Shown piece by piece: positions 22,494 through 46,216 of a stretch of DNA of 55,788 nt. The position numbers and the translations under genes are program-made. The stretch is from a virus. Position 1 is the stretch's first letter. Each line of letters begins with the position of its first letter. The notes under the pieces are model-generated. The model searched no databases and was not told the origin of the DNA. It saw nothing but the letters and a program-made list of their open reading frames with translations. The DNA lies in IMG/VR virus record IMGVR_UViG_3300041997_000014, positions 1-55,788 of that record; one strand, written 5' to 3'.

Positions 22494-22910
22494 ATGGATT
22501 TCAAGCCGACAACCCACGCGGCGATGCGTGGGGAGGTCTTGGTGCTCACGGTGAAGGGTTTGCTGCGAGGCATGCCCGGCATCACCGAGGTGCGCTCACA
22601 GGTGATCAGGGAGATCGACGATCACCCGGCGGCGCGGGCAGTGGTCATCGACCTGCTGAAGGCCATCCCTGCAATCTCGCTGAGCGACTGGATGGCCTTC
22701 AAGGCGTCCGGGCCCAGCGTGCCGATCAGACCGACGCTACCGATCGCGCTCGTGGTCTCGCCTGACTTCATCGGGTATGGCTGCGAGTACACCGTGGCCA
22801 TGGCTGAGCACGACCTGCGGCGCTTCTTCTTCATTTCGCCCGCTGACGCCTTTTCGTGGGCGGCTGCCCGCCTGGAGCGTTTGCCGCATCTTTCAGGCGC
22901 GCTGCAGTAG
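22494..22910 (+). CDS. STAS/SpoIIAA-like protein
   Basis: The 138-residue protein begins MDFKPTTHAAMRGEVLVLTV and has a STAS-like alternation: a first strand, a helix, AARAVVIDLLKAIPAISLSDW (strand-loop-helix), IALVVSPDF and a final strand RRFFFISPADAFSWAAARL, matching the usual phi-F-x-D-x-x-A-W ending. It is rightward while its neighbours are leftward, and its last 80 bases overlap the end of the repressor gene head-on. It may be prophage cargo; a phosphorelay-like partner is not present. Family assignment is tentative. Confidence 0.5.
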   Translation: MDFKPTTHAAMRGEVLVLTVKGLLRGMPGITEVRSQVIREIDDHPAARAVVIDLLKAIPAISLSDWMAFKASGPSVPIRPTLPIALVVSPDFIGYGCEYTVAMAEHDLRRFFFISPADAFSWAAARLERLPHLSGALQ

Positions 22911-23370
22911 ACACGCTCTTCGCGCGCGGCAGGATTTCGGCGACGTGCATGGCAGCCTCTGCGGCCACATCGCTGGCGACGGTCGGCGTGCGTGCGGGTT
23001 GCGCGGACTTGCCGGCGTTGTTCACGGCTGCACGCAGCACCGCTTCCCGGATGTCGCGGGCCACTGCTGAAGGCAGCATCCGGTAGGCGTTGAGGATCGT
23101 CACCTCGTCCTCATTGAGGATGGCACCGGCTGCCGCGGCGTGGTCGTGATCCATCCAGTTCTCCGGCTTCCCCATGGCCTGTTCCAGCCGGCGCGCCATG
23201 TCCGTGCCCAGCTCCCGCGGCCTTCCGCTCTTGTGGTCCTGGATGCGGTTGACGACCTGGCTTAGGTAGATCGGCGTCGTCTCTGCTCGTTCAGCAAGCG
23301 CGTGCTGTGTTCCAGCCTCCTTGATCAGCGCCAGCAAGTTGGCCAGCCGAATTTCGGCGATCGATTTCAT
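22831..23370 (-). CDS. CI-like HTH repressor lacking a peptidase domain
   Basis: The 179-residue protein has an XRE-type HTH (residues about 5-65: LANLLALIKEAGTQHALAERAETTPIYLSQVVN) with adjacent RRLEQAMGKPENWM, typical of prophage repressors. The rest is a helical Ala-rich C-terminus ending in a basic tail; there is no S24/LexA-type Ser-Lys autoprotease, so classical RecA-stimulated self-cleavage is not expected. It sits divergent from the Cro-like gene with three operator-like dyads between. The ATG at 23370 fits family N-termini; an upstream ATG near 23469 would read across the operators and is rejected. Confidence 0.8.
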   Translation of the reverse strand: MKSIAEIRLANLLALIKEAGTQHALAERAETTPIYLSQVVNRIQDHKSGRPRELGTDMARRLEQAMGKPENWMDHDHAAAAGAILNEDEVTILNAYRMLPSAVARDIREAVLRAAVNNAGKSAQPARTPTVASDVAAEAAMHVAEILPRAKSVSTAARLKDAANAPGGQPPTKRRQRAK

Positions 23371-23378
23371 GCCGCGGA

Positions 23379-23403
23379 TTGTTAGCGCGCCGCTACGTTC
23401 CGC
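23379..23403 (-). promoter_or_regulatory. PRM-like promoter for the repressor, giving a leaderless mRNA
   Basis: On the minus strand TAACAA (23379-23384) is the only -10-like box close to the repressor ATG, and the ATG follows it by eight bases, so a transcript from here would start at or next to the AUG. No Shine-Dalgarno is present. The -35 is poor, as in activator-dependent PRM promoters. The operator-like site 23382-23396 overlaps the -10, allowing negative autoregulation. Confidence 0.4.
23382..23396. promoter_or_regulatory. Degenerate operator-like dyad near the repressor start
   Basis: TTAGCG-CGC-CGCTAC keeps the AGCG/CGCT core of the operators but deviates symmetrically at the outer positions, which suggests weaker binding. 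Its centre is 47 bases from the next site. It is placed like the OR3 site of lambda. Confidence 0.55.
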
Positions 23404-23428
23404 GAAGAAGCAGGCCGCTTCCGGCCTG

Positions 23429-23443
23429 TAAGCGGGCCGCTTG
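23429..23443. promoter_or_regulatory. Operator-like dyad over the PR -35 box
   Basis: TAAGCG-GGC-CGCTTG matches the dyad with one outer mismatch and overlaps the first three bases of TTGACT. Its centre is 22 bases from the next site. Confidence 0.8.
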
Positions 23444-23469
23444 ACTTCGATAAGCGCGTCGCTTAGCAT
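23441..23469 (+). promoter_or_regulatory. PR-like rightward early promoter with start site at the cro AUG
   Basis: TTGACT (23441-23446), a 17-base spacer and TAGCAT (23464-23469) form a sigma70 promoter. The expected start site is about seven bases after the -10, which is exactly the A of the ATG at 23476. The cro-like mRNA would therefore be leaderless, and no Shine-Dalgarno precedes the ATG. Confidence 0.8.
23451..23465. promoter_or_regulatory. Operator-like dyad in the PR spacer and -10
   Basis: TAAGCG-CGT-CGCTTA is a perfect 6+3+6 dyad lying in the PR spacer and touching the -10 box. With the site centred 22 bases away it mirrors the pair at the leftward promoter. Confidence 0.8.
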
Positions 23470-23475
23470 GATTGC

Positions 23476-23751
23476 ATGGACCTCAAGTCGTACCTGGAAG
23501 GTGAGGGGCGTGGCAGGCTGACGCTGCTCGCCGCCTCTATCGCCGCGCAATCGCAGCTCGTGTGGCAGTGGGCGAACGGCGTCCGATCCGTGCCGGACAT
23601 CCGCTGCCCATCGATCGAGCGCGCCACCGACGGTGCCGTGACCTGCGAAGAGCTTCGCCCCGATGTGAAGTGGTCGCGCATCAAGGACAAGGCCTGGCCG
23701 CACCCACAAGGCCGCCCGGTGATCGATGTGGCGCGCGTGGAAGCTACCTGA
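23476..23751 (+). CDS. YdaS/Cro-like DNA-binding protein
   Basis: The 91-residue protein begins MDLKSYLEGEGRGRLTLLAA, followed by IAAQSQLVWQWANGVRSVP and CPSIERATDGAVTCEELRPD, the complete YdaS-antitoxin/Cro HTH pattern used by many lambdoid prophages as Cro. A C-terminal extension follows. It is divergent from the repressor and is the first gene from PR. The start is fixed by family alignment and by an in-frame stop four codons upstream, so the leader has effectively no length. Confidence 0.85.
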   Translation: MDLKSYLEGEGRGRLTLLAASIAAQSQLVWQWANGVRSVPDIRCPSIERATDGAVTCEELRPDVKWSRIKDKAWPHPQGRPVIDVARVEAT

Positions 23752-23859
23752 TGACCGATGCTCATCCCGCCGCTACGGCAATCGCCGCTCCCATGAACGC
23801 CCGCGCAAGCCTTGAGCGTGCATTCGCAGCACGGCAGGAGCAAGACCGCCAAGCCTGGG

Positions 23860-23955
23860 CTACCCGCCGAGCCGCCGCAGCCGCTCGCGCAGCTGATGCC
23901 GTTCGCGATACCTGCGCGACAGGCGCAGCAGCAGCAGGTGCAGCCAATTCGGCAT
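23860..23955 (-). CDS. 31-residue basic, hydrophobic microprotein antisense to the early transcript
   Basis: The reading frame MPNWLHLLLLRLSRRYRE, continuing to LRRLGG, has GGGAGG six bases... that is GGGAGGCGAC immediately before its ATG, a strong Shine-Dalgarno. Of 31 codons 27 end in G or C, typical of genuine genes here. The sequence is an amphipathic helix with a Leu face and an Arg face. It lies ten bases after the stop of another microORF on the same strand and downstream of a CII box, so it would be carried on a PRE-like transcript. It could be membrane-active or a regulator; unproven. Confidence 0.5.
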   Translation of the reverse strand: MPNWLHLLLLRLSRRYRERHQLRERLRRLGG

Positions 23956-23965
23956 GTCGCCTCCC

Positions 23966-24082
23966 TCACCGCTGCCCGAACTGCCTGAGTTGCCGGCGCG
24001 CGTGTTCGACGGCGGCTTGCCGCAACAGTCTCGCGAGCCACCAAGCCACCGCCAGTTTCGCCCAGTCCTGATCCGATAACAC
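23966..24082 (-). CDS. 38-residue microprotein antisense to the early transcript
   Basis: This GTG-started frame (MLSDQDWAKLAVAWWLARLL, then RQAAVEHARRQLRQFGQR) has TGAGGA eight bases upstream of the start. Thirty of 38 codons end in G or C, whereas the overlapping rightward frame has near-random third positions. The product is a Trp-rich amphipathic helix with a basic C-terminus. It is the first gene downstream of the CII box at 24197-24210 and is followed by a second microORF. Function unknown. Confidence 0.5.
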   Translation of the reverse strand: MLSDQDWAKLAVAWWLARLLRQAAVEHARRQLRQFGQR

Positions 24083-24196
24083 GTTGGGTTTCCTCAATAT
24101 GGTTGAAGCAGCGTTTGCCGCCCTCTCAGCGGCTGGAGCATTTGCCAAGCCGCGCGAAAAGGCACGCAAAAACAGCGTGGTTCACGTTTCTCATGC

Positions 24197-24210
24197 GCAA
24201 TTACACGCAA
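24197..24210 (-). promoter_or_regulatory. CII box of a PRE-like leftward promoter
   Basis: On the minus strand the sequence is TTGC-GTGTAA-TTGC, the TTGC-N6-TTGC direct repeat bound by lambda CII; from memory it equals the site in lambda pI. It sits 14 bases upstream of the cII-like start, as pRE does in lambda, and points leftward across the two microORFs, antisense to cro, toward the repressor gene. The -10 is not obvious, which is normal for CII-dependent promoters. Confidence 0.7.
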
Positions 24211-24223
24211 CGGGCACGCCAAC

Positions 24224-24547
24224 GTGAGCGCCGCCCCCCCGACCGTCACCGACCTTCAGCAGCGCAACCTGAGCGCGATCCTGAAGGCGCTGGCCGAGAT
24301 CAGCCAGGTCCGCGTGGCCGAGCGAATGGGCCTCAGTGGCACCACCGTCTCGCGCATGAAGGACGAGGAACTGGAGCGCTTCGCGCTGCTGCTGGCGGCC
24401 TGCAATCTGGTCGTGCAGCCGCGCAGCTATCAGGCAATCGACCCGGAAAAGCTCCGGGCCCTGAAGGTGCTGGCGCGCGACTCGCTGGAGCAGGAAACCC
24501 GCGGTGACTCGTGGGGCAGTGGAGGCTTCGATGCAGACCGCTCTTGA
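24224..24547 (+). CDS. CII-like transcriptional activator
   Basis: The 107-residue protein carries the CII pattern: RNLSAILKALAEISQVRVAE, the HTH ERMGLSGTTVSRMKDEEL and RFALLLAACNLVV, with a C-terminal tetramerisation-type helix. In lambda CII activates pRE and pI and so drives lysogeny. A matching TTGC-N6-TTGC box lies just upstream of this gene. The GTG start is supported by alignment, with little Shine-Dalgarno. Confidence 0.8.
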   Translation: MSAAPPTVTDLQQRNLSAILKALAEISQVRVAERMGLSGTTVSRMKDEELERFALLLAACNLVVQPRSYQAIDPEKLRALKVLARDSLEQETRGDSWGSGGFDADRS

Positions 24548-24920
24548 CTTCGGATTGCCACCGCTGGCCCAGGCCCGCGCAATGGGCGACACCGGCATGC
24601 AGCGCGCCGCAGAAGCTGCAGAGCGGCGCATCCCATCGTTCAGCGAGAGAGCCCAGGCGCTGATCCTGGAGAAGTTGCGCCGTGGCCCGGCCAGCGGCGA
24701 GGACATCACCGACTACGTGCGGCAGGTCCTGCCGATGAAGGATGGGCGAGCGCTGGGCAAGGCCTTCGCGTCGCTGTCGCAGCGGGGGCTGATTCAGCAG
24801 GTGGGCGAATGCCCCAGGCGTAAGGGACACGGTGGAGCAGGTGGGCGCATTTGGTCGCTCACCGAGTCCGGCCGCCTTCTTCGTGACGAACAGGGCCGGT
24901 TTGCGCCGGTAGCCGCATGA
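24531..24920 (+). CDS. Winged-helix protein of the rightward early operon
   Basis: The 129-residue protein has GGAGG seven bases before the ATG, which lies inside the end of the CII-like gene. The core is a winged helix: SERAQALILEKLRRGPASGEDITDYV, then LGKAFASLSQRGLIQQVGEC and a Gly-rich wing ending IWSLTESG. It probably binds DNA; in other phages such proteins lie between cII and the replication genes. Specific target unknown. Confidence 0.65.
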   Translation: MQTALDFGLPPLAQARAMGDTGMQRAAEAAERRIPSFSERAQALILEKLRRGPASGEDITDYVRQVLPMKDGRALGKAFASLSQRGLIQQVGECPRRKGHGGAGGRIWSLTESGRLLRDEQGRFAPVAA

Positions 24921-25402
24921 GCATCTTCAATCGCATTGCCGAGTGGCTGATCGCGCGCGCGCAGCGCCGCTCCCCCGACTTCGTCATCGGTCAGGGCAAC
25001 CCGCTGGGCCCCTACCTGAACCGCTGGTGGCTGATCCCGCGCAACCGCTTCTTCAACGTCTACCTGCACCAGTTCCTGCGCAGCGATGACGACCGCGCGC
25101 TGCACGATCACCCGTGGGCGAACTGCAGCGTGCTGCTGCGCGGCTGCTACGTTGAGCACACCATCGACGCGGGCGGAATCAACCGGCGCACGTTCCGCAT
25201 CGCAGGCGATGTCGTCATCCGACGCAGCGGCCGCATGGCGCACCGCGTCGAACTGGTCGACAGTCCGTGCTGGACTGTCTTCATCACCGGCCCGCGATAC
25301 CGCGAGTGGGGATTCCATTGCCCTGAGCAAGGCTGGGTCCACTGGCAGCGTTTCACCGCGCCCACGAACCGCGGTGATGTCGGCGCGGGGTGCGACGCAT
25401 GA
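24917..25402 (+). CDS. Cupin-like phage protein
   Basis: The 161-residue protein matches a widely distributed phage cupin-like protein: PYLNRWWLIPRNRFFNVYLHQFLRSDDDRALHDHP, SVLLRGCYVEH, AHRVEL, WTVFITGPRYREWGFHCP and WVHWQRF. His-rich HDHP and the later His fit the metal site of a cupin barrel. The biological role is unknown. ATGA overlap with the upstream gene. Confidence 0.75.
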   Translation: MSIFNRIAEWLIARAQRRSPDFVIGQGNPLGPYLNRWWLIPRNRFFNVYLHQFLRSDDDRALHDHPWANCSVLLRGCYVEHTIDAGGINRRTFRIAGDVVIRRSGRMAHRVELVDSPCWTVFITGPRYREWGFHCPEQGWVHWQRFTAPTNRGDVGAGCDA

Positions 25403-32974: not shown

Positions 32975-33205
32975 ATGGAAATGATGAACCGCGCGATCGA
33001 GGACGCTTCAGCGTTCACTGACTTCCGCGACCGGCTGCTGCGCGATGAGCAGCGCCGGCTGCGCGAGGCGATGCTGGCGGGCGATCCACCTTCGGCCGAA
33101 ACCACGCCGCAACTGGGCGCCGAGCGCCAGGCCGGCGAGAACCGTGCAGCGCACCGTGCGCGCCTGAAGGCCGAGCGCCGCATCACTTCGAAAGCTGCGC
33201 GATGA
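32975..33205 (+). CDS. Small charged hypothetical protein
   Basis: The 76-residue protein follows CAGGAGAACCGAC. It is helical (FRDRLLRDEQRRLREAMLAG) with a basic C-terminus (HRARLKAERRITSKAAR), and overlaps the next gene by ATGA. No family recognised. Confidence 0.5.
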   Translation: MEMMNRAIEDASAFTDFRDRLLRDEQRRLREAMLAGDPPSAETTPQLGAERQAGENRAAHRARLKAERRITSKAAR

Positions 33206-33462
33206 ACAGGCAGCAGGCCGTACAGGTCAGCATCTCGCTGCAGGAGCTGGCCAGCGTCGTCAATGACTTCCTGGAGGCGCGGGCCGGCGAGACGGTGGCG
33301 TTCGTGCTGATGGTCGCCACCGATGGCGTGACGCAGTACGTCAGCAACGCCAGCCGCGCCGACGGCACCGCCATGGTTGAGTCGCTGCTCGCACGCTGGA
33401 AGGCCGGCCGTGCCGACATCCCGGCGCACATGAATCCGGATCTGAAGCCGCCGACGGCGTAG
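33202..33462 (+). CDS. Small alpha/beta hypothetical protein
   Basis: The 86-residue protein has a helix ISLQELASVVNDFLEARAGE, a strand TVAFVLMVATDGVTQYV and a helix MVESLLARWKAG, a compact fold seen in several uncharacterised phage proteins. Function unknown. Confidence 0.5.
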   Translation: MNRQQAVQVSISLQELASVVNDFLEARAGETVAFVLMVATDGVTQYVSNASRADGTAMVESLLARWKAGRADIPAHMNPDLKPPTA

Positions 33463-33474
33463 AGGAGAAAGCGC

Positions 33475-34290
33475 ATGACCGAAGACGAAGCCCCGTCGAC
33501 CGCCGAGCTCTACATCCGGGCCCAGGAGAGCAATCACCTGGAGGTCACCGTTCTGCGGACCCGAGCGATCGACCGCATCATCGCCGCCGGCTGGGTGGGT
33601 GACACCCTCGGCGCGCTGCTGTACCGCGTGCTGGCCGAATACGACGCTGTGAAGGGCGAGAAGGCGCTCTACGAAGCCGAGGCCATGCGCCTGAGCGAGC
33701 TGCACCGCCAGGCCCTGAAGCGCCGGGAAACCGCGCGCAAGCAGATGGAAGAGGAATGCTGCCCATCCGTCGACCAGTACCGCGCCTGGGCCGCACACGC
33801 CGAAGAAGCCCGCCAGCTGGCCGCCCAGGTCCGCAGCGAGATCACCACCGGCCGGGCCATGGTGCTGATGCGCGTGCGCTCGCTGCATGACGCGAAGCAG
33901 GCGCTGGGCCGGTTCGCGATGATCCACGCGCAGACCTCGCGCCGCGCGCAGGCTCCGCGCACGCATCTGCTGGTGCGCTACCTCGGCGCCGAGGTCAGCC
34001 TGCCCGTCATCGACGATGCGGTCGTGCTGGCGCTGGCCGGCCGTGTGCTGGACGTCTTCCTCGATGGCGACTGCGGCCACTGCCAGGGCAGGGGATCGAA
34101 CGGCGGCCGCCACCGCGGCGAGAAGCTCGAGCTTTGCCGGCCTTGTCACGGCTCCGGGAAGCGGAGCGAGAGCATCGGCCACAACCGCACCGAGCAGCAC
34201 TTCGCCGCCAGCCTGATGGTCGAGATGAGCATCCGCCTGAACGAGGCCGAGCGCTCGATGCGCGCCTTTCTGCGCACGTTCGACGCTTGA
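33475..34290 (+). CDS. Zinc-finger protein in the position of antiterminator Q
   Basis: The 271-residue protein has a helical N-terminal two thirds with a coiled coil (about residues 65-120) and a C-terminal CxxCxGxG pair: C200/C203 (CGHCQGRGS) and C221/C224 (CRPCHGSGK), the DnaJ-type knuckle found in Phage_antitermQ proteins. It is the last early gene, directly upstream of a structured leader and intrinsic terminator before the late operon, exactly the place of Q. Antitermination is inferred from motif plus position; a generic zinc-knuckle protein is the alternative. AGGAGAAAGCGC precedes the ATG. Confidence 0.55.
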   Translation: MTEDEAPSTAELYIRAQESNHLEVTVLRTRAIDRIIAAGWVGDTLGALLYRVLAEYDAVKGEKALYEAEAMRLSELHRQALKRRETARKQMEEECCPSVDQYRAWAAHAEEARQLAAQVRSEITTGRAMVLMRVRSLHDAKQALGRFAMIHAQTSRRAQAPRTHLLVRYLGAEVSLPVIDDAVVLALAGRVLDVFLDGDCGHCQGRGSNGGRHRGEKLELCRPCHGSGKRSESIGHNRTEQHFAASLMVEMSIRLNEAERSMRAFLRTFDA

Positions 34291-34299
34291 CAGCCGATC

Positions 34300-34308
34300 T
34301 GGCATACT
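34300..34308 (+). promoter_or_regulatory. Possible late promoter (extended -10)
   Basis: TGG-CATACT fits an extended -10 element just after the stop of the Q-like gene. TTGACA occurs at 34287-34292, but only 10 bases upstream, too close to be a standard -35. Transcription would start near 34315, at the edge of the structured leader. Weak on sequence alone; position is the main support. Confidence 0.3.
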
Positions 34309-34436
34309 GCGCGCCAATTCGTTGCACCCCCGCCTGACCAGCCGCGCGCCCGTCAGGTGAATTCGCCCGGCGCGCGATGCGCCTAACTCGGTTTCGACCC
34401 GAGAGCCATTCAGGGGCGCAGCCATCCCCCAATCCG

Positions 34437-34465
34437 ACCCGGCACATGCCGGGTTTCTCGTTTCT
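34437..34465 (+). terminator. Intrinsic terminator upstream of the late genes (tR'-like)
   Basis: ACCCGGC and GCCGGGT form a 7-base-pair stem with a 4-base loop (34437-34454 including the closing pairs), followed by a pyrimidine run TTCTCGTTTCT. It stands about 145 bases after the putative late promoter, like lambda tR', and before the first late gene. Readthrough would need an antiterminator such as the Q-like protein. Confidence 0.75.
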
Positions 34466-34704
34466 GGCGCCGTGCTCACGCAGAGCCAGGTGCAAACCGC
34501 GCTCGCTGGTAGCCACCGGCCGGCGCCGCCACGTTTCCACGCCCCGCCGGATGCCGCCTCCCCACTTGGAGGTGCCGACGCAGGACCAGCCAGCCGGCGG
34601 TGCAGCCAACACCGGCATCCGCTGACGACCGCACGAGACGGACGACTCCTCCCTACCTCGCGCACGGGCGGCGGAACACAACCTCCCAACCGGGAAACCA
34701 CCAC

Positions 34705-35202
34705 ATGGCACCCTTCTATGTCTACGAACTCGTCGACCCGCGGGACGGGTCCGTGTTCTACGTCGGGAAGGGCAAGGGTCGCCGTATCTCGCACCACGTC
34801 AGGACCGCACGCCGCGGCATCGTGGACAACGCCGAGAAGTTCAAGCGCATCGAGGCGATCCACGAAGCCAGCCTGATCGTCGAAGAGAGGATCATCTCGC
34901 GCCACGTCAGCGAAAGCGATGCCTACGCCGCGGAGCGCGAGCGCATCGCTGAACTGCGAGGCAGCCTGACCAACATCGTCGGCGGCGTCGTCACGAACGA
35001 AGAGAGGCGCCGCGAACAAGCCAAAGCGGCGCTTGCGCGGTTGAAGCCCTACGACGAATGGGTTTCCGGTATGCATGAAGACCAGCGCCGGTCAGCTGAA
35101 TTCCTCGGCGGCGAGCGCTACATCTACGACACGGTGTGCAAACAACTCGCGATGATCGCGAATGGGGCCGACACATGGGGCGCCCGAGCAAGTTCACGCT
35201 GA
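34705..35202 (+). CDS. GIY-YIG endonuclease next to the terminase genes
   Basis: The 165-residue protein shows a GIY-YIG core: FYVYELVDPRDGSVFYVGKG (residues 4-23), the following basic GKGRRISHH with catalytic-type Arg, and ERIISRHVSESDAYAAERER carrying the acidic helix. This resembles LEM3/SLX1-like single-domain nucleases. It overlaps the start of terS by 28 bases. Its place directly before the terminase fits a homing endonuclease or a packaging-associated nuclease. Confidence 0.8.
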   Translation: MAPFYVYELVDPRDGSVFYVGKGKGRRISHHVRTARRGIVDNAEKFKRIEAIHEASLIVEERIISRHVSESDAYAAERERIAELRGSLTNIVGGVVTNEERRREQAKAALARLKPYDEWVSGMHEDQRRSAEFLGGERYIYDTVCKQLAMIANGADTWGARASSR

Positions 35203-35639
35203 AGGTTGCGGACGCCATCTGCGAGCGGCTGGCCGGCGGGGAAAGCCTGCGCACGATCTGCAAGGGCGAAACCATGCCGCCGATGGCAACCGTTTTCCGA
35301 TGGCTCGCCGCCCATCGGTCGTTTCGTGACCAGTACGCGCGTGCGCGCGAAGCCCAGGCCGACGCGCTGGCTGACGAGATCCTGAACATTGCCGACGACT
35401 CTACCGGCGACACGTACACCGACGACGATGGCGTCGAGCACACGAATCACGAGGTCGTCGCGCGCTCGAAACTGCGTGTCGATGCCCGCAAGTGGCTGGC
35501 CGCGAAGCTGCGGCCGAAGGTCTACGGCGAGAAGATCCAGCAGGAGTTGAGCGGGCCGAATGGAGGGCCGATCGCTCAGGTCAGTATGTCGAACCGCCAG
35601 TTCGAGGAGATCGCCCGGAACCTTCTCGCCGAGGTTTGA
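35175..35639 (+). CDS. terS: Terminase small subunit
   Basis: The 154-residue protein starts MGRPSKFTLKVADAICERLA and has an HTH (SLRTICKGETMPPMATVFRW), a central coiled oligomerisation region (REAQADALADEILNIADD) and a C-terminal GEKIQQELSGPNGGPI segment typical of small terminases. It recognises the packaging start site and loads the large subunit. The gene overlaps the GIY-YIG gene and abuts terL (TGATG). Confidence 0.9.
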   Translation: MGRPSKFTLKVADAICERLAGGESLRTICKGETMPPMATVFRWLAAHRSFRDQYARAREAQADALADEILNIADDSTGDTYTDDDGVEHTNHEVVARSKLRVDARKWLAAKLRPKVYGEKIQQELSGPNGGPIAQVSMSNRQFEEIARNLLAEV

Positions 35640-37042
35640 TGCGCGAGTACGGCGCGGAGGAGCGCCACACCGCCGGCTTGCTGGCCCGCAAGGACCTGTA
35701 CTTCTTCAGCCGCTGGACGTTCCAGCAGCGCAAACGCTACCAGTGGCAGCGGGCGCCACACCATCGGCTCATCTGCGACGCGCTGATGCGCGTGTTCCGC
35801 GGCGAGTGCCGGCGGTTGATCATCAACATCCCGCCGCGGTACTCGAAGACCGAGCTCGCGGTCGTCAACTTCATCGCCTGGGCCATGGGCCAGGTGCCGG
35901 ACAGCGAGTTCATCCACGTCAGCTACTCCGGCGAGCTGGCGCAGAGCAACTCGAGCAACGTGCTGCAGGTGATGCGGCACGAGGCCTACCGCGAGATTTT
36001 CCCGGCCGTCGAGCTGGCGTCCGATGCAAAGCACCACTGGCGCACCACCAGCGGCGGCGTGCTGTACACGGCCGGCGTCGGCGGCACGCTGACCGGCTTC
36101 GGCGCCGGCAAGGAGCGCGAGGGATTCGGCGGCGCGATCATCATCGACGACCCGCACAAGGCCGACGAGGCCAGGTCGGACACGATCCGCAAGAACGTGC
36201 TGGAGTGGTTCCAGAACACGCTCGAAAGCCGGAAGAACAGCCCGGCGCGGACGCCGGTGATCCTGATCATGCAGCGGCTGCACGCCGAGGACCTGGCGGG
36301 CTGGCTGCTCGATGGCGGCAACGGCGAGCAGTGGGAGCACCTCTGCCTGCCGGCGCTGCAGGAAGACGGCACGGCCCTGTGGCCGGAGAAGCACAAGGTC
36401 GAAGACCTGCGCCGCATGGAGACCGCGGCGCCGTATACGTTCGCTGGGCAGTACCAGCAGCGTCCGAGCCCAGGCGAAGGCGGGGTGTTCAAGCCCGGAG
36501 CGATCCAGATCATCGACGCGGTGCCGGCCGGCGCGATCCGGTGGTGTCGCGGCTGGGACCTGGGGTCGACGGTCGACGGCGACTACACGGCAGGGCCAAA
36601 GCTGGGGAAGCTGCCGGACGGCCGCTACGTCATTGCCGACGTGCAGCGCGAGCGACTCGGCCCGGATGAGCGAGACGCGCTGATCGTCAACACCGCGGCG
36701 GCCGACGGCAAGTCGGTGCGGGTCGGAATCCCGCAGGACCCTGGCCAGGCCGGCAGAACGCAGGTGCTGTACCTCACCCGGCAGCTGGCCGGCTACACGG
36801 TGAAGACCTCGCCCGAGTCCGGCGACAAGGTGACGCGCGCCGAGCCCTTCGCGGCCCAGGTCAACGTCGGCAATGTGCTGATGGTGCGGGGCAAGTGGAA
36901 CAAGGCGCTAACAGACGAAATGCGCGACTTCCCCAACGGCAAGTACGACGACCAGATCGACGGCGCGTCGCGCGCTTTCTCGGAACTGCTGGCCCCGAGC
37001 CAGGCCATGGACATCAACCTGGGCACCGCAACGAATGGCTGA
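35639..37042 (+). CDS. terL: Terminase large subunit
   Basis: The 467-residue packaging motor has an ATPase domain with the variant Walker A PPRYSKTE (residues 65-72), Walker B AIIIDD (D170-D171) and a nuclease domain beginning WDLGST (D307) and closing with KYDDQIDGASRAF. ATP hydrolysis drives DNA into the prohead and the nuclease cuts the concatemer. It directly follows terS and precedes the portal, standard packaging order. Confidence 0.97.
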   Translation: MREYGAEERHTAGLLARKDLYFFSRWTFQQRKRYQWQRAPHHRLICDALMRVFRGECRRLIINIPPRYSKTELAVVNFIAWAMGQVPDSEFIHVSYSGELAQSNSSNVLQVMRHEAYREIFPAVELASDAKHHWRTTSGGVLYTAGVGGTLTGFGAGKEREGFGGAIIIDDPHKADEARSDTIRKNVLEWFQNTLESRKNSPARTPVILIMQRLHAEDLAGWLLDGGNGEQWEHLCLPALQEDGTALWPEKHKVEDLRRMETAAPYTFAGQYQQRPSPGEGGVFKPGAIQIIDAVPAGAIRWCRGWDLGSTVDGDYTAGPKLGKLPDGRYVIADVQRERLGPDERDALIVNTAAADGKSVRVGIPQDPGQAGRTQVLYLTRQLAGYTVKTSPESGDKVTRAEPFAAQVNVGNVLMVRGKWNKALTDEMRDFPNGKYDDQIDGASRAFSELLAPSQAMDINLGTATNG

Positions 37043-38438
37043 AAACGACGTCACCTTCAGCCGCATTCCTGCCGTCATGGCGGAGCGCTGGGCGCTGGTG
37101 CGTGCGGTGTGCAGCAGCGACGAGGCGGCGCTGCAGAAGTTCCTGCCGTATCTGAACGCAAAGGACCAGACGCCGGCGAACCAGGCGCGCAACAAGGCCT
37201 ACCAAGAGAACGCAGTCCTCTACAACGTCACGCGCCACACGCGCGAGGGCCTGATCGGCCTTGCCTTCAGCCGCGAGCCGAACGCCGAGGGCATGCCGGA
37301 GCGGCTGAAGTACCTGCTGACCGACGCCGACGGCGCCGGCGTGAGCCTGAGCCAGCAGTCCCAGGCCGCGCTCGGTTCCGTGCTCGAAACCGGCCGGCAT
37401 GGCCTGCTGGTGGACTTCAGCGAGGCCCTGTCGCGGCCGGTGATCAAGGCCTACCAGGCCGAGGACATCATCAATTGGCGCCCGGCGCTGATCGGCGGCC
37501 GCATCGTGCTGACGATGGTGGTGCTGCACGAGATGGCCGAGATCGACGACGGCTACGCGGTGACCTTCGTCGACCAGTGGCGCGAGTACCGCCTCAACGA
37601 CGGCGCCTGCATCTGTAAGGTCTGGCAGCGGCCGGACCCGAAGAAGCCGCCGGTTCAGATCGGCGGCGACATCGCGGTGCGCTCGCCGGGCCGCCCGTTC
37701 GACAGCATTCCGTTCCGATTCATCGGCGCGCAGAACAACGACGCGTCCATCGACGACCCGCCGCTGTATCCGCTGGCCTACCTGAACCGGCACCACTTCC
37801 GCAATTCCGCCGACTACGAGGACAGCGTGTTCTACGTCGGCCAGGCACAGCCCTGGATGTCTGGGCTCACGGAAGAGTGGCGCGACTGGATGCAGGAAAA
37901 GGGCATCTACGTCGGCTCGCGCGCGCCGATCCTGCTGCCGGCCGGCGGTGAATTCGGCTTCGCCCAAGCCCAGCCGAACCAGCTGGCCATGGAGGCGATG
38001 AAGCACAAGGAAGAGCAGATGCGCGCCCTCGGCGCCCGGCTCGTGGAAGAGAAGACGGCCCACACCGCCACGCAGAGCGACAACGACAAGGAAGCCAGCA
38101 CATCGGTGCTGTCGACCTGCGTGGGCAACGTGACCGCCGGCTACCAAGCCGCGATCGACTTGTGCTGCCGGTACATGGACACCGAGCCGAAGCCGGACGC
38201 CTTCGCGATCAACAAGGACTTCGTGCGCCTGCTGGCCGACGCGCAGACCGTGACCTCGATGGTCGATGCATGGCAGCGCGGCGTGATCGCCAAAGCAGAC
38301 GTTCGCTCTTTCATGCGCGAGCGCAGTTTCGTCCCGCCGGATCGCACCGATGCGGACATCGACAAGGACATCGCGGCCGAGCCGAAGCCCCCGGCGCCCG
38401 CACCGAATCCGGCTCCGGCCAAAGGCCAGGCGGCTTGA
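37035..38438 (+). CDS. Portal protein (DUF4055 family)
   Basis: The 467-residue protein fits DUF4055 portals: YNVTRHTREGLIGLAFSREP near residue 63, ALGSVLETGRHGLLVDF, AEDIINWR, FRFIGAQNND, a conserved HFRNSADYEDSVFYVGQAQP and a long helical C-terminal region. It forms the dodecameric ring at the capsid vertex for DNA entry and exit. It overlaps terL by eight bases. Confidence 0.92.
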   Translation: MAENDVTFSRIPAVMAERWALVRAVCSSDEAALQKFLPYLNAKDQTPANQARNKAYQENAVLYNVTRHTREGLIGLAFSREPNAEGMPERLKYLLTDADGAGVSLSQQSQAALGSVLETGRHGLLVDFSEALSRPVIKAYQAEDIINWRPALIGGRIVLTMVVLHEMAEIDDGYAVTFVDQWREYRLNDGACICKVWQRPDPKKPPVQIGGDIAVRSPGRPFDSIPFRFIGAQNNDASIDDPPLYPLAYLNRHHFRNSADYEDSVFYVGQAQPWMSGLTEEWRDWMQEKGIYVGSRAPILLPAGGEFGFAQAQPNQLAMEAMKHKEEQMRALGARLVEEKTAHTATQSDNDKEASTSVLSTCVGNVTAGYQAAIDLCCRYMDTEPKPDAFAINKDFVRLLADAQTVTSMVDAWQRGVIAKADVRSFMRERSFVPPDRTDADIDKDIAAEPKPPAPAPNPAPAKGQAA

Positions 38439-38503
38439 TCTCGTCTCCACACTTCGCGGCCTAGGGCCGTTTCTCTCAACTGTCCCAAGGGGACGCACAG
38501 CCC

Positions 38504-39250
38504 ATGTTCAAACGCACGCTCCTCGGTCGCCTGATTTCCTTCCTGAACCCCTCCGTCGTCGATGACAGCGGTGGTGGTGGTGGCGGCGGCCCGACGATCA
38601 CGCCAGAAGTCCAAGCGCTGATCGACTCCGCCGTGTCTGGGCTCAAGGCCAAGAACGGCGAGTTGATCGGCAAGCTCAAGGACGCCACCACCAACCTCCA
38701 GCGCTTCGACGGCATCGACCCCGATGCCGTGCGCACGATCCTGTCGAAGTTCGCCAGCGACGAAGAAGCCGCGTTGATCGCCAAGGGCGACATCGACACG
38801 GTGCTTTCGAAGCGCACCGAGCGCATGCAGGCCGACTTCGCCAAGAAGGAAAAAGGCTGGACGGACGCCGACGCGCGCAAGGACGCCAAGATCAAGAAGC
38901 TGGAGTCCGGCAAGGTCTCTGGCGCACTGACCGCGGCGGCTTCGAAGGCCGGCGCGCTGCCCGAGGCGATGGAAGACATCGTCTTGCGCGGCCAAAGCAC
39001 CTGGCGCGTGAATGACGACGGAGACGTCGTCGCCATGAACGGTGATGAGGTGGTGCTCGGCAAGGACGGCAAGACGCCACTGACGCCGATTGAATGGGCT
39101 GAATCCCTGCGGGAAGCCGCGCCGCATCTCTGGCCGAAGGCTCAGGGCACGGGCGCACCTGGCTCCAGCACGCAGCCGAGATCCGGCAGCGAAATCTTCA
39201 AACTCTCGCCCGTGGAGCGCATGAACGCGGCACGGGCGCAACGAAAGTAA
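38504..39250 (+). CDS. Capsid scaffolding protein
   Basis: The 248-residue protein lies between portal and major capsid. After an N-terminal segment and a Gly-rich spacer, the region IDSAVSGLKAKNGELIGKLK to about residue 130 is a charged coiled coil, followed by a helical FASDEEAALIAKGD-type unit and a C-terminal helix-turn-helix (SPVERMNAARAQRK) typical of scaffold C-termini that bind the capsid shell. It directs prohead assembly and then leaves the head. Confidence 0.85.
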   Translation: MFKRTLLGRLISFLNPSVVDDSGGGGGGGPTITPEVQALIDSAVSGLKAKNGELIGKLKDATTNLQRFDGIDPDAVRTILSKFASDEEAALIAKGDIDTVLSKRTERMQADFAKKEKGWTDADARKDAKIKKLESGKVSGALTAAASKAGALPEAMEDIVLRGQSTWRVNDDGDVVAMNGDEVVLGKDGKTPLTPIEWAESLREAAPHLWPKAQGTGAPGSSTQPRSGSEIFKLSPVERMNAARAQRK

Positions 39251-39253
39251 ATC

Positions 39254-40180
39254 ATGGCCCTGACCCTTGTCGAAGCCGCGAAGCTGGAAACCGGTGATGC
39301 CGTCCGCTCCGCGATCATCGAGCTGTACGCCGGCTCGTCCTCCATCCTCGCGAACCTGCCGTTCGAGACCATCGCCGGCAACGCGCTGAAGTACAACCGC
39401 GAAGACGCGCTGCCCGGCGTCGGCTTCCGCGGCGTGAACGAGAGCTACACGCCTTCGACCGGCATCCTGAACCCGATCACCGAATCGCTGGTGATCGCCG
39501 GAGGCGACCTCGACGTCGACAAGTTCATCGTCGACACGATGGGCGCGGCGCAGCGCTCGACCCACGAGGCGATGAAGGTGCGCGCCTTGGCCCTGGCCTG
39601 GACGAAGAAGTTCATCAAGGGCGACACGGCGAGCGACCCGCGCGAGTTCGACGGCTTGCAGGTCCGCGTGACCGGCAACCAGAAGATCGCGGCCGGCTCG
39701 ACCGCCAACGGCACCGCCCTGTCGCTGGCCAAGCTCGACGAGGCGATCGATCAGACGCTGAACCCCACGCACCTGATCATGAGCAAGGCCATGGCGCGCA
39801 AGTTCAGCGCGGCGGCGCGCAGCACGTCGGTGGCCGGCTACGTCACCTACAGCAAGGACGCCCTCGGCCGTCGGGTGATGCAGTACAACGACCTGCCGAT
39901 CCTCACGGTGGACCTCGACAACGCCGGCGCCGCCATCCTGCCGTTCACCGAGGCCGCCACCAGCGGCACCGCGACCGCCACCTCGATCTACGTGGTGAGC
40001 ATGGGCTCGGACGGCCTGACCGGCCTGCAGAACGGCGGCATCGACGTGCGCGACCTGGGCGAGCTCCAGACTGCGCCGGTCTACCGCACGCGCGTCGAGT
40101 GGTATCCCGGCATGGCCATCTTCAATGGCCGCGCCGTGACCCGCCTCTGGTCGATCGCCGACGCCGCGATCGTCGCCTGA
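39254..40180 (+). CDS. Major capsid protein
   Basis: The 308-residue protein begins only four bases after the scaffold. It has the arrangement of HK97-fold capsids of this portal/scaffold type: helical N-terminal MALTLVEAAKLETGDAVRSA, a beta region ending LPGVGFRGVNESYTPSTG, the spine helix DTMGAAQRSTHEAMKVRALA, and the A-domain near LPILTVDLDNAG and YVVSMGSDGLTGLQNGG. The closing RVEWYPGMAIFNGRAVTRLW is typical. It forms the icosahedral shell. Confidence 0.93.
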   Translation: MALTLVEAAKLETGDAVRSAIIELYAGSSSILANLPFETIAGNALKYNREDALPGVGFRGVNESYTPSTGILNPITESLVIAGGDLDVDKFIVDTMGAAQRSTHEAMKVRALALAWTKKFIKGDTASDPREFDGLQVRVTGNQKIAAGSTANGTALSLAKLDEAIDQTLNPTHLIMSKAMARKFSAAARSTSVAGYVTYSKDALGRRVMQYNDLPILTVDLDNAGAAILPFTEAATSGTATATSIYVVSMGSDGLTGLQNGGIDVRDLGELQTAPVYRTRVEWYPGMAIFNGRAVTRLWSIADAAIVA

Positions 40181-40211
40181 TTCACCGCCTGACGCCTGAA
40201 AGGAAAGCATC

Positions 40212-40628
40212 ATGGCCAACCTGCATTCGCAGTTCACTTACGACGACGCCCTGGTCCTCAAGGACGCCGGCCTCGTCGCCTCGACCACCACGGAAAGCAC
40301 CATCCTCGATCTGGGCTCCGGCTTCGTGGATGGCTTTCTCGTGGTCGACGTGTCGGCGTGTGAAGTCGCCACCGGCGACGAGAAGTACACGATCCACCTC
40401 GAGGGTTCGAACGTCGCAGCGATGAGCTCCGGTTCGGTCTCGCTGGCCGCGTTCTTCATGGGCAACCTCACGGCCCCCATGGACGCAGCCACTGGCACCG
40501 GCCGCTTCGTGATCCCGTTCACCAACGAGCAGAACGGCACGGTCTACCGCTACGTGCGCCTGTACACGCTGGTGGCCGGCGACATCGCCACGGGCATCAA
40601 CTACTCGGCGTTCGTCGCCAAGCGCTGA
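40212..40628 (+). CDS. Bbp16-like capsid cement protein
   Basis: The 138-residue beta-rich protein follows the capsid gene with AAAGGAAAGC upstream. STTTESTILDLGSGFVDGFL and VYRYVRLYTLVAGDIATG resemble Bbp16-type cement proteins, which trimerise on the outside of the capsid and stabilise it. Position right after the major capsid supports this. Confidence 0.65.
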   Translation: MANLHSQFTYDDALVLKDAGLVASTTTESTILDLGSGFVDGFLVVDVSACEVATGDEKYTIHLEGSNVAAMSSGSVSLAAFFMGNLTAPMDAATGTGRFVIPFTNEQNGTVYRYVRLYTLVAGDIATGINYSAFVAKR

Positions 40629-40629
40629 C

Positions 40630-41244
40630 ATGACCGCGCGCAACGTGGCCGGGACGCTCCCGGTCAATGCCAACGTCAACCGCGTCCGGCAATTCGACCT
40701 GCAGGCCTCGCAAGAGGGCTACGGGTCGGTTCCTGGCGCGGTGTCGGCCAACGTCACCGCGACCGAGGCGGGTGTCGGCGTCGTTCACCAGACGACGCTG
40801 ACGCTTTCCGCGCTCGCGCAGGCTGTGGCCAACGGCACCGAGTACCAGGGCACCAAGATCTACGACTTCCCCGAGGGTCGGATCTTGGTCTTGGGCGTGG
40901 TGGCCACGCTCCAGCAGACCACCACCAGCGCCCTCGCTGGCACGCTGAACGCGAGCTCGACCGGCGCGGTGGCGCTCGGCACGGCGACCGCGTCGAACGT
41001 CTCGCTGACCTCGACGATGGTCGACCTGCTGCCGTCGACCGCGTTCACCTCGTCGGCCACGGTCGACGTGGCGGGCACGGCTGTCGCTGCCGCGCTCGCC
41101 GCGTCGGCGCAGTTCGACGGCCGCAGCACGGCGAAGGACGTTTACCTGAACTCGGCCTTCGCCACGACCACCGACGTGGACGGTGATGCGTCGATGACCT
41201 GGTCGGGCAGCGTCACCATCACCTGGATCAACCTGGGCGACTGA
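40630..41244 (+). CDS. Head-associated structural protein
   Basis: The 204-residue protein is Ala/Thr/Ser-rich and beta-structured, with VVHQTTLTLSALAQAVANGT and a closing DASMTWSGSVTITWINLGD. Such sequences, placed between cement and connector genes, are usually minor capsid or head-decoration proteins. It starts one base after the preceding stop. Exact role unknown. Confidence 0.6.
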   Translation: MTARNVAGTLPVNANVNRVRQFDLQASQEGYGSVPGAVSANVTATEAGVGVVHQTTLTLSALAQAVANGTEYQGTKIYDFPEGRILVLGVVATLQQTTTSALAGTLNASSTGAVALGTATASNVSLTSTMVDLLPSTAFTSSATVDVAGTAVAAALAASAQFDGRSTAKDVYLNSAFATTTDVDGDASMTWSGSVTITWINLGD

Positions 41245-41249
41245 GGACC

Positions 41250-41492
41250 ATGACCAAGCAAGTCACACACACCGTTTACGACGCTGCTGGGAAGCCGCAC
41301 ACCGTCGAGCCCGTCGACGCTCGGGAGTACGTGGCTTCGGGCCACTACTTCCGCGAGCCGCCGGAGGCCCAGAAGGTTGCGCCCGCCGCGCCGGCTGCGC
41401 CTGAACCGGCACCGACGCCGACGCCGACGCCGGCCGAGCAGGTGGTTGCCGAGGCGAAGGCTGCTGACGCCAAGACGAAGGCGAAGGGCTGA
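41250..41492 (+). CDS. Small Pro/Ala-rich virion-region protein
   Basis: The 80-residue protein has a short folded N-terminus (VYDAAGKPHTVEPVDAREYV) and a disordered tail with PTPTPTP and Lys/Ala-rich helix. Similar short proteins occur between capsid and connector genes in many phages without known role. Confidence 0.55.
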   Translation: MTKQVTHTVYDAAGKPHTVEPVDAREYVASGHYFREPPEAQKVAPAAPAAPEPAPTPTPTPAEQVVAEAKAADAKTKAKG

Positions 41493-41495
41493 CCC

Positions 41496-41876
41496 GTGAC
41501 CCTGACCGACGCGCAGATCGTCGACCTGCGGCGCTGGCTCGGCTACCCGCTGGCCAGCGCCACAGGCGTCGAGACGGTCTACACGCCGGACTCGCCGCGC
41601 GTGTCGTTCACGGCCCGCCTGGAGGCGTTGTCGGCCAGCGAGGAAACGGTGCTGGTCGAGCGCTTCCTGGACAAGCTGGCGCTGCTTGAGCAGGCGATCC
41701 TCGATGCGGCTGACAACCTCGACACGGACACCGCCGGCCCGTGGAAGGCGAACCATCGCGAGATCTCGCAGCGCAAGTCGCTGTACAACAGCACGCGGCG
41801 CGAGATGTGCGCGTTCCTGGGCTTCGAGCCCGGCCCGAGCCTGGGCACCGGCGCGATCTTCGCGACGCGCTGCTGA
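41496..41876 (+). CDS. Head-tail connector-like protein
   Basis: The 126-residue protein is helical: TDAQIVDLRRWLGYPL at the N-terminus, then VERFLDKLALLEQAILDAAD, and REMCAFLGFEPGP at the end. Size, helical make-up and position after the capsid genes fit an adaptor protein of the head-tail interface. Inferred from synteny. Confidence 0.6.
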   Translation: MTLTDAQIVDLRRWLGYPLASATGVETVYTPDSPRVSFTARLEALSASEETVLVERFLDKLALLEQAILDAADNLDTDTAGPWKANHREISQRKSLYNSTRREMCAFLGFEPGPSLGTGAIFATRC

Positions 41877-41880
41877 CACC

Positions 41881-42507
41881 ATGGACGGCGAGACGCTCCA
41901 GGCCCGGATCTACGCGGGCTACGGCAAGGCTGCGTCACGCGTTGGCCGCTCCTATTCCGTGTACCGCGCTGCGACGCCGGTGAGCCCGCTGGAGGCCGGC
42001 AACCTGGTTGGTTCGGTCGACTGCTTCTTCGCCGCTGACCAGAAGTTCAACAGCGTCCACAAGTACAAGAACGTCGAGCGGTACATGTGGGCCGATGGCC
42101 GCGAGTTGCAGCAGCGCGACATCCTGCTGGGGCCATACGGCACCTTCTACGTCGGCGACATGCAGCCGAACCTGCCGATCCAGGCCATCTGGTGCAACGA
42201 GGTCGTGAAGATCGAGCGCCCGACCTATCAGGGCACAACCATGGTGCCGGAGCAGATCGCCTTCGGCCTGCCGTGCTTCCGCCAGCTGAAGAAGGTCGAC
42301 CAGAAGCCTGTCGGCCAGGCCTTCGGCGCCAGCACCGCGGCCACGCCGATCGGCGAGTGGTTCGTCTTCCTGCCCATCGAGCAGGGACTGGTGCAGCAGG
42401 GTGACATCGTGACCGACCAGATCGGCCGCCTGTTCTCGCTCGACACGATCGACAACACCGAGATCGGCGTGGTGATCACCATGCGCCAGTCGGACACCGC
42501 CGAATGA
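41881..42507 (+). CDS. Head completion / stopper-like protein
   Basis: The 208-residue beta-rich protein has YSVYRAATPVSPLEAGNLV, MWADGRELQQRDILLGPYGT, and IERPTYQGTTMVPEQIAFGL. Its place after the adaptor-like gene and before the gpG-like morphogenesis protein suits a head-closure protein. It is coupled downstream by ATGA. Family not named with confidence. Confidence 0.55.
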   Translation: MDGETLQARIYAGYGKAASRVGRSYSVYRAATPVSPLEAGNLVGSVDCFFAADQKFNSVHKYKNVERYMWADGRELQQRDILLGPYGTFYVGDMQPNLPIQAIWCNEVVKIERPTYQGTTMVPEQIAFGLPCFRQLKKVDQKPVGQAFGASTAATPIGEWFVFLPIEQGLVQQGDIVTDQIGRLFSLDTIDNTEIGVVITMRQSDTAE

Positions 42508-42950
42508 TCACGATCGACGCCGCCGCCACGCTGCTGCAGCTGAACGCGATGCTGGCGCGCATGCGCAACCCCGAGCCAGCCTTCTCGGTCATCGGCTACC
42601 AGCAGCGCGACGCGATCCGCCGGCGCATCCAGCGCGAGAAGCGCGACCCTGACGGCAACGCCTGGGCGCCATGGGCCGATGCCACGCTGCACGGCTTCGG
42701 CCCTTTCCCGGGCCGCGAGGACAAGGGCAACGTCGCGCAGGGACTTCTGTGGGACGACGGCACGCTGCTGGATGCGATCCAGTCGAAGTCCACCGCCAAG
42801 GGCGTGGACATCACGGCCGACACGCCCTATGCGGGCTACCTGCAGGACGGCACCCGCAAGATGCCGGCCCGGCCCTTCATGGGCTGGACCGATGACGACA
42901 CGCAGCAGGCCGAGATGACGGTGCTGCACTACATCGAGGGCGTGCTGTGA
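42504..42950 (+). CDS. Virion morphogenesis / tail completion protein (Mu gpG/P2 gpS-like)
   Basis: The 148-residue protein resembles phage virion morphogenesis proteins: basic helix GYQQRDAIRRRIQREKRDPDG followed by NAWAPWADAT, a central beta region, and YAGYLQDGTRKMPARPFMGW, where the GT-K-PARPFMG signature is diagnostic. It probably completes the tail at the head-proximal end. Confidence 0.85.
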   Translation: MITIDAAATLLQLNAMLARMRNPEPAFSVIGYQQRDAIRRRIQREKRDPDGNAWAPWADATLHGFGPFPGREDKGNVAQGLLWDDGTLLDAIQSKSTAKGVDITADTPYAGYLQDGTRKMPARPFMGWTDDDTQQAEMTVLHYIEGVL

Positions 42951-43402
42951 TCGCCGAGATCGCCGCCGACCTGCTGGCCAAGGTGCAGAGCGTGCCCAGC
43001 CTGGAGACGAGCGCGGGCCTGTCGATCGGCGGCCGCAGCCAGGACCCGGGCCTGCTGAAGGTGCCGCTGCCGGCCGCCTGGTGCAGCCTGAAGACGGACC
43101 AGACCGACGAGCAGGACTACACCCACGGCCAATCAAGCGGCATCGTCATCCGCGAGCAGCGAATGATGGGGACGTGGGCCGTGATGGTCTTCATCCCCTA
43201 CATCGACGACGCCAACCTGCTGGCCGTGCAGTTCCCGCTGCTGGAGGCCGTGGCCAACGCGGTGCACGGCACCACAACCCCGTCCGGCTTCGCCTGGCGC
43301 TACCTCGGCCAGCGCATCGCACTGGTCTACCCCGACCGCCTCGCCTACGAGCAGCGCTTCACGTTGCACTACGCGATGAATTCCGACCCCATCACCAACT
43401 GA
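42947..43402 (+). CDS. Tail terminator / Gp37-like protein
   Basis: The 151-residue protein starts MIAEIAADLLAKVQSVPSLE and has FIPYIDDANLLAVQFPLLEA, then VYPDRLAYEQRFTLHYAM, a layout of Mu Gp37-like tail terminator proteins that cap the growing tail tube. ATGA overlap with the morphogenesis gene. Confidence 0.7.
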   Translation: MIAEIAADLLAKVQSVPSLETSAGLSIGGRSQDPGLLKVPLPAAWCSLKTDQTDEQDYTHGQSSGIVIREQRMMGTWAVMVFIPYIDDANLLAVQFPLLEAVANAVHGTTTPSGFAWRYLGQRIALVYPDRLAYEQRFTLHYAMNSDPITN

Positions 43403-43423
43403 CCCTCCCGCGAAAGGCCTGCC

Positions 43424-44212
43424 ATGGCAATCATCTCTAACTCCGACCTGCAGGCCATCTGCGACAAGCTCGCGCGTTGGGCTGCCATGAGCGTCGGCGA
43501 CGACGCATTTGACGACTCCTTCAATGCTGGCATGGCTGCGGCCAATGCGGCCGTGATGACCGGCTCGGGCTCGCTGCAGACGTACCTGTTCGAGACGGTC
43601 ACGGACGCCGACGTCGCGGCCGATCTGCTGGGCGCTGCGCGCGACCTCGAGGAAAGCCAGCCGGTCCCGCCGACCCGCTTCATGATCGGCATTGCCGGCA
43701 TCTCGGCGTTCTTCGCGGCGCTGAACCGGCACATCGCCCGGTACTCGGTCTACTCGACGCTCGATGCGTACCTGACCAGCCTGAATGCCTCGTCGCCGAC
43801 GCTGCGTGTGCACCAGGCGCTGCACGACCACCTGAAGGCGTTCAGCCGCAAGAACGTGTTCATCGCGAACGACACGGTCCTGGCCACCATCAGCATCACC
43901 GGCGCCGCGGCTGGCACGTTCGCCAGCGTGGCGACGATCGGCAGCGCCTACGCCGGCGCCAAGCTCGTTGCGAAGAACCAGGGCGCGACGGACAGCGATG
44001 CGGTGCTCAGCATCACCGGCAAGAAGGTCGACGGCACGACCCAGGTGCTGACCGTCACCTGCAGCACGAACACCGACGACGCGGAGCACGACCTGTCGAG
44101 CACCGCGAAGCTGTTCACCGAGGTGACCGCGATCAGCGTCACCAGCGACGGCACGAACGGCAACGTGATCGAGATCGTTGCCAAGACCGACCGCGACATC
44201 AGCGCCGCCTGA
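43424..44212 (+). CDS. Tail-region structural protein, unknown
   Basis: The 262-residue protein has a helical N-terminal half (LQAICDKLARWAAMSVGDDA, FFAALNRHIARYSVYSTLDA) and a beta-rich Ig-like C-terminal half (about 160-262: ITGKKVDGTTQVLTVTCSTN, AISVTSDGTNGNVIEIVAKT). It is encoded immediately before the tail tube protein. It is likely a virion component; the C-terminal domain may decorate the tail. Confidence 0.6.
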   Translation: MAIISNSDLQAICDKLARWAAMSVGDDAFDDSFNAGMAAANAAVMTGSGSLQTYLFETVTDADVAADLLGAARDLEESQPVPPTRFMIGIAGISAFFAALNRHIARYSVYSTLDAYLTSLNASSPTLRVHQALHDHLKAFSRKNVFIANDTVLATISITGAAAGTFASVATIGSAYAGAKLVAKNQGATDSDAVLSITGKKVDGTTQVLTVTCSTNTDDAEHDLSSTAKLFTEVTAISVTSDGTNGNVIEIVAKTDRDISAA

Positions 44213-44251
44213 TCCCTACCTCTCGCACCTCACCACTGAAAGGGCCGCATC

Positions 44252-45028: not shown

Positions 45029-45068
45029 AAGCGCTGCGGCATCAGACTCGAAGCCGAGGAGCCAAGCC

Positions 45069-45578: not shown

Positions 45579-45685
45579 CGCTGGCGCAGATGACGCTGTT
45601 CCTTGAGCATGGCGAAAAGCTGGTGGAGCTGCGCCACAAGCAGCTGGCCAACCGCGTCGCGGTGACCCTCTTCGGCTCGGACTAG
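45461..45685 (+). CDS. Tail assembly chaperone, frameshift extension (T part)
   Basis: This 74-codon extension is reached by the -1 frameshift. It reads into DWGAVFARLIEHGHSRADID, RMTLAQMTLFLEHGEKLVEL and HKQLANRVAVTLFGSD, helical and rich in charged residues as expected of the T domain that recruits the tail tube to the tape measure. An internal GTG at 45491 could start a separate protein, but coupling through the slip site is more likely. The stop overlaps the antisense Mrr stop by two bases within CTAG. Confidence 0.85.
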   Translation, partial: QAAHPAQAPGVDARGAADWGAVFARLIEHGHSRADIDRMTLAQMTLFLEHGEKLVELRHKQLANRVAVTLFGSD

Positions 45686-46200: not shown

Positions 46201-46216
46201 CCCGTCAAGGTAGCAC

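Follow-up and report, generated by a model that had tools for sequence, protein, structure and literature searches.

The region between the cro-like and cII-like genes of a 55.8-kb virus record from the IMG/VR collection is best described as part of a lambda-type lysis/lysogeny control region with a putative CII-activated leftward transcript, and two short minus-strand frames that lie between these genes are probably chance open reading frames (ORFs) in the leader of that transcript. We assign to this reading a probability of about 70%. The window, by which we mean the whole stretch of 55,788 nucleotides that was analysed, has a GC content of 67%, and the features on which the argument turns are as follows.

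22831 to 23370, minus strand: cI-type repressor of 179 amino acids (phrog_12107, transcriptional repressor, E 5.8e-18), the gene on which the leftward transcript would presumably act
23476 to 23751, plus strand: YdaS/Cro-like protein of 91 amino acids (PF15943, YdaS, E 7.4e-17; P22_Cro, E 0.007)
23752 to 24223, no strand assigned: cro-cII gap of 472 nt, with no clearly coding frame
23751 to 24071, plus strand: 106-codon frame whose ATG overlaps the cro stop (TGATG); codon score -21.85
23860 to 23955, minus strand: 31-codon frame starting with ATG, with GGGAGG 4 nt upstream; probably a chance ORF, with a borderline codon score of +2.48
23966 to 24082, minus strand: 38-codon frame starting with GTG, with TGAGGA 8 nt upstream; probably a chance ORF, with a codon score of -6.36 that is not coding-like
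24197 to 24210, minus strand: CII box, TTGC-N6-TTGC (TTGCGTGTAATTGC), in the lambda pRE orientation
24224 to 24547, plus strand: CII-like activator of 107 amino acids with a GTG start (phrog_725, CII-like regulator, E 4e-19)

Judged by its gene content the neighbourhood is a lambda-type (CI/Cro/CII) immunity region, because CI-, YdaS/Cro- and CII-like identities are found in this order. The product of 24224-24547 is, by homology over the DNA-binding domain, an activator of the CII family. When 13 CII homologues, headed by the window protein, are combined in a profile, the lambda CII structures 1xwr and 1zs4 are retrieved at E about 1e-13 (1.4e-13 for 1xwr); the single protein scores 18.9 bits against PF05269, under the Pfam cut-off of 21.3. 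Its single-sequence structural model has a mean pLDDT of 58.7, too low to support a fold search, and a search with the single protein in a sample of about 770 genomes, drawn from one order and the class to which it belongs, gave six CII homologues with at most 42% identity. No close relative of the window was found among deposited phages for the stretches searched. The phage has been assembled at least twice, since the IMG/VR collection contains a second contig that matches the window at 99.99% identity over 13,089 nt; this contig covers only positions 33140-46228 and not the gap.

Two further observations concern the surroundings of the gap. The sole promoter match in the region, TTGACT-17-TAGCAT on the plus strand at 23441-23476, ends 7 nt 5' of the cro ATG, and with a start point predicted from this match the cro mRNA may be leaderless. 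To the right, at 24917-25402, there is a gene with DNA similarity to annotated cysteine dioxygenase genes (up to 91% identity over about 100 nt), and matches of this kind occur in many unrelated phages (Mycobacterium, Gordonia, Xanthomonas, Clavibacter).

The CII box reads GCAATTACACGCAA on the plus strand at 24197-24210, corresponding to a leftward TTGC-N6-TTGC that lies 27 nt upstream of the cII start, and it is present on the strand of the two short frames and upstream of them, as the initial annotation had stated. Over the entire window the motif is not unusual (4 sites on both strands versus 2.0 expected); at the window-wide chance rate about 0.009 boxes are expected in this gap and orientation. 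A right-oriented TTGC-N6-TTGC is also found within cI, at 22999-23012, and such sites are near chance window-wide. Among relatives, left-oriented boxes at or near the cII start are seen at -119 in Xanthomonas phage Rb1, at -3 in locus L076 and at +27 in L089; no such box was found near the cII start in L085-L088, L005, the two Pseudomonas phages examined or Gifsy-2.

The correctly oriented box beside cII, together with the CI/Cro/CII context, makes the pRE-like leftward transcript proposed in the initial annotation plausible, and we consider a functional pRE likely. What speaks against the proposal is the rest of the promoter: the hexamer at lambda spacing, GAACCA, has one match to TATAAT and is a poor -10, and a consensus scan of the region gave no leftward promoter. 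By lambda spacing transcription would be expected to start near 24169, which would place both short frames inside the leader.

A separate pattern is seen within cII genes. Six divergent CII homologues (L005, L085, L086, L087, L088 and L105) carry TTGC-N6-TTGC inside cII on its sense strand, at +57 or +75 from the start codon and over the same codons (L-[QR]-x-[LV]-A), where it is spelled by the leucine and valine codons TTG, CTT and GTT; the joint chance of this is about 0.005-0.16 per locus for the five loci tested. L105 has an additional left-oriented box at +37. The intragenic sense-strand box is absent from the window and from two other eligible homologues (L003, which is phage Rb1, and L104). 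Where present it may be a second CII site within cII, opposed to pRE.

According to the reading that we prefer, rightward transcription through cro after infection would lead to production of the CII-like protein, which would bind the box just upstream of its own gene. We infer that CII bound there would activate leftward transcription from near 24169, giving an RNA that is antisense to the gap and to cro and that continues into cI to provide cI mRNA. The 472-nt gap would then be mostly the untranslated leader of this transcript, and the two short frames with Shine-Dalgarno (SD) motifs would be chance ORFs of no function. Such ORFs are unsurprising, because several pairs of this kind are expected in any 56-kb sequence at 67% GC.

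In the initial annotation the two frames had been taken for a pair of microgenes, and its description of their anatomy is correct. The 38-codon frame (23966-24082; context on the minus strand ATTGAGGAAACCCAACGTG) has TGAGGA 8 nt before the GTG at 24082, the 31-codon frame (23860-23955; GGTGAGGGAGGCGACATG) has GGGAGG 4 nt before the ATG at 23955, and the frames are separated by 10 nt. In one respect the earlier description must be amended, as in the ORF listing the 38-codon frame forms the 3' end of a longer frame, 23966-24169, of 67 codons with a TTG start. The GTG with its SD motif is probably the better candidate start, because the TTG sits at the expected start of the transcript.

The principal argument for coding had been the GC content at third codon positions (GC3), and here too the counts of 30/38 and 27/31 are accurate. 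We reject GC3 as evidence for coding, however, since antisense fragments of confident genes reach the same values in 31% of cases at the level of the 38-codon frame and 23% at that of the 31-codon frame, so that the measure fails to discriminate. The contrast that had been drawn with the overlapping rightward frame is numerically there (66/106 for the latter) and yet lends no support to coding on the minus strand, the rightward frame being itself probably non-coding with its score of -21.85.

That frame deserves consideration in its own right, as the gap might code rightward for a small gene translationally coupled to cro. Its ATG at 23751 overlaps the cro stop in the sequence TGATG, a geometry that resembles that of a coupled gene, and three cro relatives (L007, L008 and L009) have an ORF whose start coincides with the cro stop or is no more than a few bases away from it. 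Set against this are the codon score of -21.85 and a GC3 of 62%, and there is no family match, nor any similarity to the three downstream ORFs in the search made, so that we consider a coupled rightward gene improbable.

Codon usage was evaluated with a model trained on 48 confident genes of the window, with cI and cro outside the training set; the distribution of scores for true fragments is somewhat flattering, because it derives from the same genes that trained the model. The 38-codon frame, at -6.36, falls below 98% of length-matched fragments of true genes, and 53% of antisense fragments reach its score. The 31-codon frame is borderline, its score of +2.48 lying below 93% of true fragments and being reached by 16% of antisense fragments. 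Expressed per codon, the scores are -0.17 and +0.08 for the 38- and 31-codon frames, versus +0.13 for cI and +0.20 for cro; neither frame has the codon usage of the phage's genes. In favor of the shorter one, its score is +2.5 over 31 codons versus -14.1 over the 46 in-frame codons upstream of its ATG, and the minus-strand frame to which it belongs is the top-scoring one in part of the gap.

The tandem arrangement was assessed from the number of ORF pairs, in the window and in 100 dinucleotide shuffles of it, in which each member has at least 30 codons and an SD motif before it and the distance between the two does not exceed 25 nt. The window contains 10 such pairs (3 of them antisense to confident genes) and the shuffled windows contain 8.67 on average, so that the arrangement of SD motifs and starts does not exceed chance. 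When the gap is considered by itself a minus-strand pair occurs in 0.5% of shuffles; the fair yardstick is nonetheless the window-wide rate, because the gap was chosen after the whole window had been read. Amphipathicity was rejected as evidence as well, since 17% and 25% of spurious ORFs have moments at least as high as those of the two peptides, and an arginine content of 29%, as in the 31-residue peptide, is attained by 0.6% of true segments.

Neither peptide has a significant homologue in Pfam, PHROGs, the phage collection or IMG/VR pattern searches, and the four sequences that match the start of the 31-residue peptide exactly in the pattern search proved to be unrelated. Relatives of the gap DNA were not found in the phages, plasmids, IMG/VR or records searched. 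Eight viral and five genomic loci were retrieved by Cro, and in none of these was a CII homologue found downstream of the Cro-relative gene; the closest Cro relatives have other ORFs downstream of cro. Terminase searches provided 56 loci, and the whole records of 40 loci, taken from the two kinds of search, contained no match to the gap DNA.

How these results weigh on the microgene proposal can now be stated. If both frames were real genes on a CII-dependent leader, their arginine-rich, amphipathic products would act early in lysogeny establishment, with the membrane, host RNA polymerase or proteases as examples of possible sites of action. The spacing from SD motif to start, stop, second SD motif and second start is clean, other frames in the gap lack a convincing coding signal, the score drops upstream of the 31-codon start, and an antisense repressor transcript with coding ORFs is already on record (PMC9936078). 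Yet the codon scores of both frames fall within the antisense null, pairs of this kind occur at chance frequency, the arginine content of the 31-residue peptide is one that few true segments attain, and no homologue was found in the collections searched. We therefore regard a pair of functional microgenes as unlikely, and the claim for microproteins as it had been made is unsupported, with GC3 non-discriminating, codon usage poor or borderline, pairing at chance level and amphipathicity ordinary. A review of antisense proteins cautions that short, young genes can show unusual codon usage (PMC7457138), and this caution, together with the codon scores that favor the 31-codon frame, leaves the proposal with a low probability. 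In its boldest version the lysogeny-establishment transcript would encode two tiny amphipathic proteins ahead of cI that serve as transient effectors, and orphan, young genes of this sort would explain both the poor codon usage and the missing relatives; we think this version very improbable.

One or both frames might instead be translated as a leader device, in which ribosomes would block Rho on the antisense segment or tune cI and the sequence of the peptides would be irrelevant. The position of the frames at the head of the inferred transcript and the strong GGGAGG motif are consistent with such a role, as is the finding that a scan of 23300-24700 gave no intrinsic terminator on the leftward path, the gap included. 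The leftward leader RNA folds slightly better than its shuffles (z -1.7), although the signal is weak, with 6 of 100 shuffles equally stable, and the rightward RNA of the gap is not more stable than shuffles. We consider such a leader device doubtful as well, and chance ORFs in a mostly untranslated leader remain the reading that we favor.

Should the frames be translated, proteins would be coming unnoticed from the leader of a lysogeny-establishment transcript, and it would be possible to examine this position across many temperate phages. More generally, in GC-rich phage genomes neither a high GC3 nor an SD-like motif says much in favor of a microORF, since both also arise in antisense frames and by chance. 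The immunity region is useful in its own right as a newly described CII system in which cro and cII are far apart. In the best reading it adds one more case to a regulatory layout that is already known, the ORFs in its leader having arisen by chance.

In phage lambda the pRE box lies inside the first codons of cII, and the leftward pRE transcript is antisense to cro and reaches cI. The window resembles this arrangement in having a CII-family gene to the right of cro, with a leftward box next to the cII start, and in a putative leftward transcript that would likewise run antisense to cro and reach cI. It differs in that its box is 27 nt upstream of cII and not inside the first codons, in a cro-cII gap of 472 nt, in a Cro-like protein of the YdaS family and in a poor -10 match.

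Xanthomonas phage Rb1 (PQ569993) also has cI, cro, a gap (353 nt) without an annotated gene, and CII, and its gap contains a left-oriented GCAA-N6-GCAA box. A counterpart of the window's two frames is absent from Rb1. Inspection of its gap by eye shows a short ORF after cro and, near 2250-2276, a hairpin followed by a few T residues that resembles a terminator, whereas no terminator was found in the gap of the window.

In Pseudomonas phage Fc02, a B3-like (Mu-like) phage, the ORFs olg1 and olg2 are part of the repressor transcript and lie antisense to ner and to gene 10; when expressed from a plasmid, olg1, which has an SD-spaced AUG, yields a polypeptide of 7.9 kDa that shows exclusion activity (PMC9936078). 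As in the window, where the transcript is putative, two ORFs are found at the head of a repressor transcript and antisense to early lytic genes. The Fc02 transcript is made from pC1 in the lysogen, CII is not described, and olg1 and olg2 overlap each other (PMC9936078), unlike the putative frames of the window, which are 10 nt apart. The initial annotation had regarded a coding leader on such a transcript as new, and olg1 weakens this novelty (PMC9936078), although the Fc02 transcript is not described as CII-driven.

The YdaS-YdaT system of CP-933P resembles the window in that its Cro equivalent belongs to the YdaS family and that a PRE, only putative in the window, points leftward from between the genes of Cro and CII type (PMC9986795). 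YdaT is structurally unrelated to CII and recognises the inverted repeat TTGATT-N6-AATCAA (PMC9986795); where CP-933P has YdaT, the window carries a protein of the CII family.
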